This document shows positions 33,701 through 39,202 of a stretch of DNA of 64,000 bases, one piece after another. A program made the translations under genes and the position numbers. The first letter of the stretch is position 1. Every line of letters starts with the position of its first letter. Origin of the DNA: Clytia hemisphaerica (Eukaryota > Cnidaria > Hydrozoa > Leptothecata > Clytiidae); assembly GCA_902728285.1 (NCBI GenBank), contig CACVBU010000053.1, positions 262,808-326,807 on the forward strand, read 5' to 3'. The notes below the pieces were generated by a model. That model worked only from the letters and a program-made list of their open reading frames with translations. It did no database searches and had not been told where the DNA came from.

Positions 33701-36700
33701 CCGACTTTAGCAAGCTTTTCCCTCTCCAGATGGCAAAATTAAAAAGTGTGTTACTGGTTTTAAGCGCCGTTTCTACCAAAACGGACAGACAGATACACGG
33801 ACGGAAGGAAAAGTGCTAATGAAAGGCCCTATCGCTAGCGCTGGGCCAAAAATATTGTGCTCACAGCTCTAGTGGAGATATACATTTTACAATTCCTAAA
33901 TCTTGTAAATCAGGTTTGTTTTGTTTTCTCTGGTTTTCTTTGTATTTTGCTGCTTTGATTGGTCATTCATTTGAGAGCTATACAAGTTTCACTCCCCTGA
34001 TGCAAGTTACCCGACTTCTGGGATGGCTTTTTTTCCTCTAGCTCTTCTTTAAACAAAACAAATAACACTGATTAATTAGACTGAAACTACAGGGATAATA
34101 GCATTTTAGCTATACTTCACAAGAACACAACAGATACAGCCCCACCCCCTGATCAGCAGAAGAAATTGCCTTTCTGACGCAATTTTCAAAAACCCGGAAA
34201 AAATCTTTTGGCTGTCTGCCCACCTACATGTATTTTTAACAACCGCGCTGCGACGCAAACAGAACAATTTTTTGATTCCCGCCTAATGTTTATGTCGCTA
34301 ATAATAACCGGAGATAAAATGGTATTTATGGCAAATAGGCAAAGGTCTATTAGACCAAATTACTGCACTAGATGGTAACACAAATAACTTCATTTCATGT
34401 CCTCGTTGGGTCTAAAAAGTGAGTTGATCGAATGTCAAATTTTTTAGGTTGTTCAAAATTTGGTCTGCGACCCCCTTCCCCCTTCCTCTTAACAGCCAAA
34501 AAATTCTTGAAAAAAATAAACTTTTGAAGGCCTGAAACTACCTTTCCCCTACATGTTCTTTCACATTCTTTTTCTTTGCTAACATTGAAATGCTTCTTTA
34601 TTTCTACAGGAAAACATTGGTTTTGAGCTGTGATCTTAGGATTTAACCCAAGGCGAGTCAGGGCGGGATAGGAATAGCGGTTGTTACTATGAGGGCGGGA
34701 TGAGGTATTGCCGCATTGGGTTACGTGACAAATTATATTTCTCAATATACGAGTGAAAAGTATGGCGGAAGTGATGGATTGTATGGCTTCTTAGTATTTT
34801 AAGACTTAGGGACACTGCGAGGAGCTTCTATTTTAAGTGAGATTATCTGTCTTTTTTAACTATTTTTGACAACATACCATCAACTGCCTTAACTTGGGAC
34901 GATTGGTCGAAACATGGGACTGTTGATATCTGGCCTGTATTTTCACTTACTGTTAAATCTCTGTTGACAAAAAATTTGCTTTGATAACTCCACCAAGTTT
35001 ATCAATCATACTTTCTGTCATAACATGTCACAATAACTTTTAGTTTACTGATAGCGCGCCCTTTTTAAGGGTTTGTTTTCATTTAAAATACCCGGACACC
35101 GATTGGGATTGACAAATAACGAGTGTTTAACTGGCCACGCGAGTGACCTCAAACACTGATTGTTTTGCCACTAATTTGGTCTTTTTTGTTCCAGACATTT
35201 GCGGGTGTTCCACTACGAATTGTTCTTATATTTCGATTTAAAAGCCTACTTTCAAGTGGGTAACTTGCATCAGTGGAGGGAAACTTGCATAGCCATCGAA
35301 TGACTGACCAATCAAAGCAGCAAAATTTCAAACCAAATAAACTACACAACTCCGCTCGCAGCTCTACTCTACCATTTTTGTTTTGATTCAACTTTGTATT
35401 TTAATGACCAGCCTGGGTAGTTCATTTGAGGGCTATACATGTTAGCCTCCCCACTCCTGCAAGTAACCCGATCTCACGGTACGCGGTGCGAAAGAAAATC
35501 GTTCATTAACTCAAATCAAATGACTTTGGAGGTTCGGTGAAATGGTGGCCAAATTGCCTTCCCATGTTTTGTCAGATAGTCCTAAGTTAGAGCAGTTAAC
35601 GGTAAACGTTGACCCTCTCCCCCCCTTATGCCCTGAAGCTGTTGAAAAAAGGATTGTCATCCCTAAAAGAGCATTAAATAAGGCAAAGAAAAATGTTCCA
35701 TAGTCAGCCAGCCAAAACGACTGCACATTTTGTGTGGTTTCAATTTATGAACTCCTTTGAACACTGTGACCTTTGACACAAAACGACCCTGGACACCGCC
35801 ATACATTGTACGGTGTTGTTCGGTGGGAACAAGTCAACCTATTTTGACCACCGTACAAGGTATGGCGGCTACATCGTACAATGTACGGTGGGAGCTATTC
35901 CTCAAAGATTTATTTCCACCGTACTCGTCCGGTGTAGCCGCCTTTGATTCGTTATAACGCCATATAACACTTCCGCCCTCTTTTTAAAGATTTGTCCCTG
36001 CCACATATTTGTTTTGGTAAATGAGTCTAAGAAGTTGTTTAGTTTTAGAATTGAATACAATACATGAATTCCATATGTGACTAACGGACATTTCCACTGT
36101 TTAGCAGGCTAGAAGTCAAGCTTGAAAATAGGAATAAAACTTCTTTTGGTGTGGTAACTATCAGTGGGGGTCAAAGTTTCAAGAACCATATAAAACTTTT
36201 TCTCTTGACATTCACTTGGTCAGAAATTGCAATTAATAGGCCCGTGACTAACGGACACAAAAATTAACATCTAAAATGGGACACTTTTACAAACAGATGT
36301 AAAGTGCTGTTCCTAAAGCTACAGGTTAGGTTTTTTGCTTAAATTCACTAGAGGAAAGGTTGAATTTTATGTTTCAAAATCAATTTTGAAAAAAAATTGT
36401 CAAAGTAAGAAAATATGACAAAAATTGGGCAAAAAATGCTGTGACTAACGGACATTTAAAAACGTGACTAACGGACAAAACGGTTTTTTAATGATTCTGA
36501 CGAGGCAATCCAACCATTCCTATATTTGGTGCTTTAGGGGTGAAATGTTATATCAATAGAATGACAAAAGCCTAAAAGAATAGAAGAATTCTCATTTTTC
36601 TCTGTGTGGTACCATTCCTGTCAAGTGCATAGATCCCGAAAATTTGAAAATTTTGAAATATAAAGATCTGTTGAGTTTTTATGGGTGTTTTTTGCACTGC

Positions 36701-39202: not shown

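Follow-up and report, generated by a model that had tools for sequence, protein, structure and literature searches.

In the passages of PMC10368747 drawn on here, hAT elements require about 100–220 bp of each end, and these ends carry repeated motifs. Mutation of the end motifs of Tol2 lowers excision, and in Hermes BED domains bind the repeated end motifs; for Hermes, left-end binding motifs past the first 50 bp were considered dispensable and auxiliary binding of the transposase unlikely, though some unidentified feature inside the ends was allowed for (PMC10368747). In Spm/En, according to the corresponding passages of PMC2613891, the subterminal repeats are read by TNPA, which is a separate protein and not the transposase (TNPD). 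The 64-kb stretch of Clytia hemisphaerica DNA analysed here (the window) contains one copy of a TIR element with the following parts:

about 35784..38060, no strand assigned: whole element, 2277 bp, classed as a non-coding TIR DNA transposon from its TIRs, candidate TSD, subterminal motif and lack of a credible Pfam match
35776..35783, no strand assigned: left direct repeat ACACAAAA, 8 bp, candidate TSD, read from the sequence
35788..35800, plus strand: left TIR CCTGGACACCGCC, 13/13 match to the right TIR
35807..35925, both strands: left subterminal repeats of the TGTACGGTGGGA type, five matches, inside two strong hairpins
37919..38042, both strands: right subterminal repeats of the TGTACGGTGGGA type, five matches, from a search at up to three mismatches
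38043..38055, minus strand: right TIR CCTGGACACCGCC, 13/13 match to the left TIR
38061..38068, no strand assigned: right direct repeat ACACAAAA, 8 bp, candidate TSD, read from the sequence

At up to two mismatches, CCTGGACACCGCC has two matches in the window, both exact and on opposite strands, against an expectation of 0.14. For an 8-bp repeat to lie no more than 6 bp from each TIR end, the chance is 0.002; this 6-bp tolerance was set after inspection of the sequence. The ACACAAAA copies stand 4–5 bp outside the matched TIR, and because the bases between TIR and TSD mismatch across the two ends (CGAC on the left, TAGAT on the right), the borders of the element are uncertain. The subterminal motif is confined to the ends: at up to three mismatches, all 10 of the in-element matches to TGTACGGTGGGA lie 24–141 bp from an end, and 25 occur in the remaining window. 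The right subterminal region also includes a 19-bp tandem repeat (37923–37972, TRF). At the left end we observe two adjacent strong hairpins (35801–35942); the DNA fold of 35784–35943 has a z of −7.8, with 0/200 shuffles as good, and the last 160 bp of the element show no strong fold (z −0.25). A six-frame Pfam scan of the element returned a single match (E 0.099; 12.5 bits versus a cut-off of 26), which is not credible, and Rfam at the gathering threshold found nothing in the window. A candidate nested element bounded by 36055–36074 and 37674–37693, whose arms are complementary at 18 of 20 positions, was set aside: the pairing is probably chance because both arms share the palindrome GAATTC.

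As to superfamily, an 8-bp TSD fits hAT, but also P and other superfamilies, and the candidate ACACAAAA has this length. The terminal bases of the hAT type are YARNG, which the right tip TAGAT fits in part and the left tip CGACC does not, and the six-frame Pfam scan detected no hAT transposase inside the element. CACTA termini are absent, the ends of the element reading CGACCC and TAGATCC, and the TSD of CACTA elements is 3 bp. We take the element to be non-autonomous and possibly hAT-like.

The body of the element is distinguished by eight copies of a 14-bp box, GTGACTAACGGACA:

36077..36090, plus strand: box 1, exact
36244..36257, plus strand: box 2, exact, 167 bp past box 1
36441..36454, plus strand: box 3, exact
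36464..36477, plus strand: box 4, exact, 23 bp past box 3
36800..36813, minus strand: box 5, inverted, with one change (last base)
36979..36992, plus strand: box 6, exact
37146..37159, plus strand: box 7, exact, 167 bp past box 6
37313..37326, plus strand: box 8, exact, 167 bp past box 7

A search of both strands of the 64 kb at up to three mismatches recovers these eight matches, all within 36077–37326, and no GTGACTAACGGACA site beyond them, in agreement with the preliminary description, which had listed seven identical plus copies and an inverted copy with one change. Measured from the left end of the 2277-bp element, the boxes sit at 294–1543 bp, in the interior of what is, by its sequence features, a non-coding TIR (class II) DNA transposon. 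They lie deeper than the end regions described in the passages of PMC10368747 and PMC2613891 drawn on here, in which we saw no direct precedent for boxes at such a depth.

The boxes are strikingly exact. The in-element matches to GTGACTAACGGACA number seven, one, zero, zero and four at 0, 1, 2, 3 and 4 mismatches, respectively; 13 of the box positions are unvarying in 8/8 copies, and the preceding base is C or T in all eight. With simple sequences filtered out, no 14-mer in the window is more frequent than the box (7 copies); next come 14-mers with 5 copies, one of which is the box shifted by a base. That such a set could be produced by chance or by an assembly artefact is scarcely credible: we found no point in favor of this, shuffled controls gave a mean of 2.89 matches and a maximum of 7 with eight reached in 0/100, and most of the boxes have flanks unlike each other. 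Two pairs of boxes nevertheless have a few further bases in common, 36076/36440 matching at 18/18 positions and 36975/37142 at 20/21.

The same exactness bears on the idea that the boxes constitute a homotypic cluster of sites for a host transcription factor, forming a promoter or enhancer that either belongs to the element itself or was captured from a gene. Repeated exact sites with 7/8 in one orientation would be in keeping with such a cluster, as would the presence in the box of TAACGG, which we take to be a Myb-type core. However, 13 fixed positions in 8/8 copies with none at 2–3 mismatches is, as a matter of general knowledge, stricter than is usual for such sites, and we consider this origin quite unlikely.

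The plus boxes are spaced, in order, by 167, 197, 23, 515, 167 and 167 bp. The three neighboring pairs at exactly 167 bp, which had been remarked on earlier, hold up: under random placement, at least three equal adjacent spacings arise with P about 0.0001 (draws with overlapping boxes being scored as misses), and any pairwise distance occurring at least three times has P 0.0005. The box starts also show phase coherence at 10.5 bp, one of 11 periods first examined, with R 0.81 and P 0.0017 for random positions; P becomes 0.0204 given the 167-bp groups. When the period is left free between 9.8 and 11.2, the best value is 10.49 (R 0.86), with P 0.039 for random positions and 0.18 with the 167-bp groups. 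A common helical face of the boxes at 10.5 bp is suggestive at most. The suggestion that 167 bp reflects a chromatosome length gained no positive support, as the 10-bp power of WW dinucleotides in the box region is ordinary, being equalled by 10.6% of 198 background stretches.

Spacing and orientation also bear on whether the boxes might act in RNA, with a transcript of the element presenting seven copies of GUGACUAACGGACA as sites for an RNA-binding protein or a small RNA. The location of 7/8 boxes on one strand is compatible with this, and ACUAAC in the box RNA is presumably the core of STAR/Quaking-type sites. The exact 167-bp steps and the common helical face point instead to DNA, and action in RNA appears very unlikely.

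The preliminary description saw no obvious similarity in the DNA between the boxes. This stands for ungapped comparison, where identity at lag 167 is 0.284 and the mean over lags 60–399 is also 0.284, but not entirely for gapped alignment, in which the three spacers of the 167-bp steps (a, 36091–36243; c, 36993–37145; d, 37160–37312) are weakly alike. Against 3000 shuffles, their gapped pairwise scores have P 0.010 (a–c), 0.037 (a–d) and 0.037 (c–d). In a smaller test, which allowed free end gaps and used 200 shuffles, 1/200 (a–c), 63/200 (a–d) and 7/200 (c–d) were as good, and the a–d likeness is not firm because of the 63/200. Of 4000 GC-matched triples drawn from the window, 0.6% equal the summed a+c+d score, as do 0.4–3% of control triples over seven scoring schemes with 1500 triples each; the a, c and d triple was set by the 167-bp rule and not chosen by score. 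Spacer b, from the 197-bp step, shows no consistent kinship with the others (a–b P 0.38, b–c 0.06, b–d 0.97). We regard the gapped likeness of the three spacers as a weak signal, and it hints that the 167-bp spacings could be the remnant of an old tandem duplication in which the box alone stayed exact.

These data bear on another possibility, namely that a decayed satellite-like tandem array of about 167 bp was captured in the transposon and that a CENP-B-type host protein preserved the box as the rest of the monomer decayed. The preliminary description had likened the boxes to those of satellites, and this likeness survives as a hint, in the weak gapped resemblance of the three 167-bp spacers. 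Beyond that resemblance and the three exact 167-bp steps, the inverted box begins 336 bp (2 x 168) past box 4, and at up to one mismatch the short motif ACTTCWTTTWTGGT occurs in the window solely in spacers c and d, though two matches also arise in 6/100 shuffles. Conversely, TRF detects no tandem array over the boxes, lag 167 carries no ungapped similarity, the 197-bp spacer b shows no consistent likeness to the others and the WW periodicity is unremarkable. A captured satellite survives as a weaker rival, and we hold it to be unlikely. Elsewhere in the window, TRF reports a tandem repeat at 32766–33217 with a period of 172 bp and 2.5 copies, a length near the 167-bp step.

The explanation that we favor, with a probability of roughly 0.55, is that proteins bind the boxes, which would serve as internal cis-acting sites of a cut-and-paste DNA transposon that is itself non-autonomous. 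Of the earlier proposals, we favor that of internal transposase sites, given the position of the boxes within a TIR element flanked by a candidate TSD; the binding itself is putative. A transposase supplied in trans would cut at the TIRs and read the TGTACGGTGGGA subterminal repeats, and a second DNA-binding activity would read GTGACTAACGGACA. This second reader could come from the host or from the transposon, in the latter case either as a further domain of the transposase or as an accessory protein that the autonomous element encodes, and its binding might coat the middle of the element, help pair the ends or pack the element. We propose that a copy whose boxes are intact spreads better, which would keep the boxes exact while the DNA between them drifts. 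The 167-bp spacings would be best read as leftovers from a time when a unit carrying the box was duplicated in tandem, and cooperative binding perhaps preserved the spacing and the helical face.

For binding sites in a transposon we count the 13/13 TIR match, the TSD candidate, the end-confined TGTACGGTGGGA, the lack of a coding match and the mismatch histogram of the box, along with the spacing (P 0.0001–0.0005), the spacer likeness (0.4–3%), the phase (R 0.81, P 0.0017) and the precedents of the repeated end motifs in hAT elements and of TNPA in Spm/En. Against it we count the single copy in the window, the depth of the boxes (294–1543 bp), the judgment on the deeper motifs and auxiliary binding in Hermes, the unmatched end bases, the late choice of the TSD tolerance, the fall of the phase P to 0.02 or 0.18 and the 63/200 for a–d.

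Other elements of the window are boxed too. The neighbor at 38243–38592 is a compact 350-bp element with inverted ends, flanked by the 9-bp direct repeat GTCAATTAC. It carries five GTCTCTCTAAGGGT boxes (four exact, one one-off), whose helical phase at 10.5 bp (R 0.67) comes from too few boxes to judge. This neighbor shares with the 2277-bp element the combination of boxes and inverted ends but differs in box sequence and spacing. A third family is represented by copies at about 15150–15650 and 30050–30600, with AAACTTTCGCGA boxes having four matches each at up to one mismatch; these copies have diverged to about 80% over 15268–15544 and 30142–30419. The presence of three boxed families within 64 kb suggests, but does not show, that boxed elements are common in this genome, and the box layout is therefore less surprising.

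Outside the element, a Pfam scan of 19 pieces of the window's other frames found DUF6589 in five frames at two places, 1244–1618 (minus strand) and 17617–19336 (plus strand), with 1/5 above the family cut-off; a full-text literature search for DUF6589 found no paper. Near these fragments, 21313–22590 (minus strand) encodes a helicase C-terminal domain together with a sub-threshold RecQ zinc-binding match. The region of about 42900–51940 (minus strand) contains ABC transporter exons, with ABC_tran at 47855–48088 and ABC_membrane at 51235–51600, the other exons being recognized by eye. From the split exons of this transporter, the RecQ-like helicase and the DUF6589 fragments, we would infer an animal host.

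Beyond the window, the viral and prokaryotic contig collections contain no stretch with two boxes 154–184 bp apart start to start (a gap of 140–170 bp); given the nature of these collections, this is hardly informative on the host. In the viral contigs, the 15-mer YGTGACTAACGGACA has one match in each of 17, which we take as probable chance, and the TIR-plus-subterminal pattern has no match in the viral contig collection. A full-text literature search with four box strings found no paper, a statement limited to that search; for five other strings of the window, no transposon of this kind is named in the titles or abstract openings among the matches listed.

A bolder extension of the binding-site reading is a transposon family whose interior carries exact 14-bp boxes in a phased array, read by an accessory protein dedicated to them. 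This protein would bind on a single helical face, in steps of near-nucleosome length, and would fold or pack the element's body, a role apart from end recognition. Such an element would be a transposon-borne counterpart of the CENP-B-box/satellite system, caught as its 167-bp repeat decays around the box; we think this rather improbable. If genomic copies keep the boxes while the spacers drift, then selection would be acting on the middle part of a non-autonomous transposon, which is usually deemed filler. In that event GTGACTAACGGACA would be an exact bait for a pull-down, and the locus would offer a concrete case of the way in which a box-plus-monomer satellite might arise inside a mobile element.

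Overall, this is an unusual layout in a known kind of system. Short TIRs, a candidate 8-bp TSD, short repeats of an end motif and a non-coding body are shared with non-autonomous hAT elements of the Ac/Ds, Tol2 and Hermes types. Unlike those elements, it carries deep in its body a second motif that is longer and exact, and here no transposase is found and the terminal bases disagree between the ends. If the two-protein reading holds, it resembles CACTA/Spm with TNPA in having a repeated box read by a non-catalytic protein, but it differs in its lack of CACTA termini, its 8-bp candidate TSD and the internal rather than subterminal position of the boxes. CENP-B box satellites differ in turn, as here eight copies, presumably unlike the CENP-B box in sequence, sit in a transposon with no detectable array; what the two have in common is an exact box within diverged units of near-nucleosome length.
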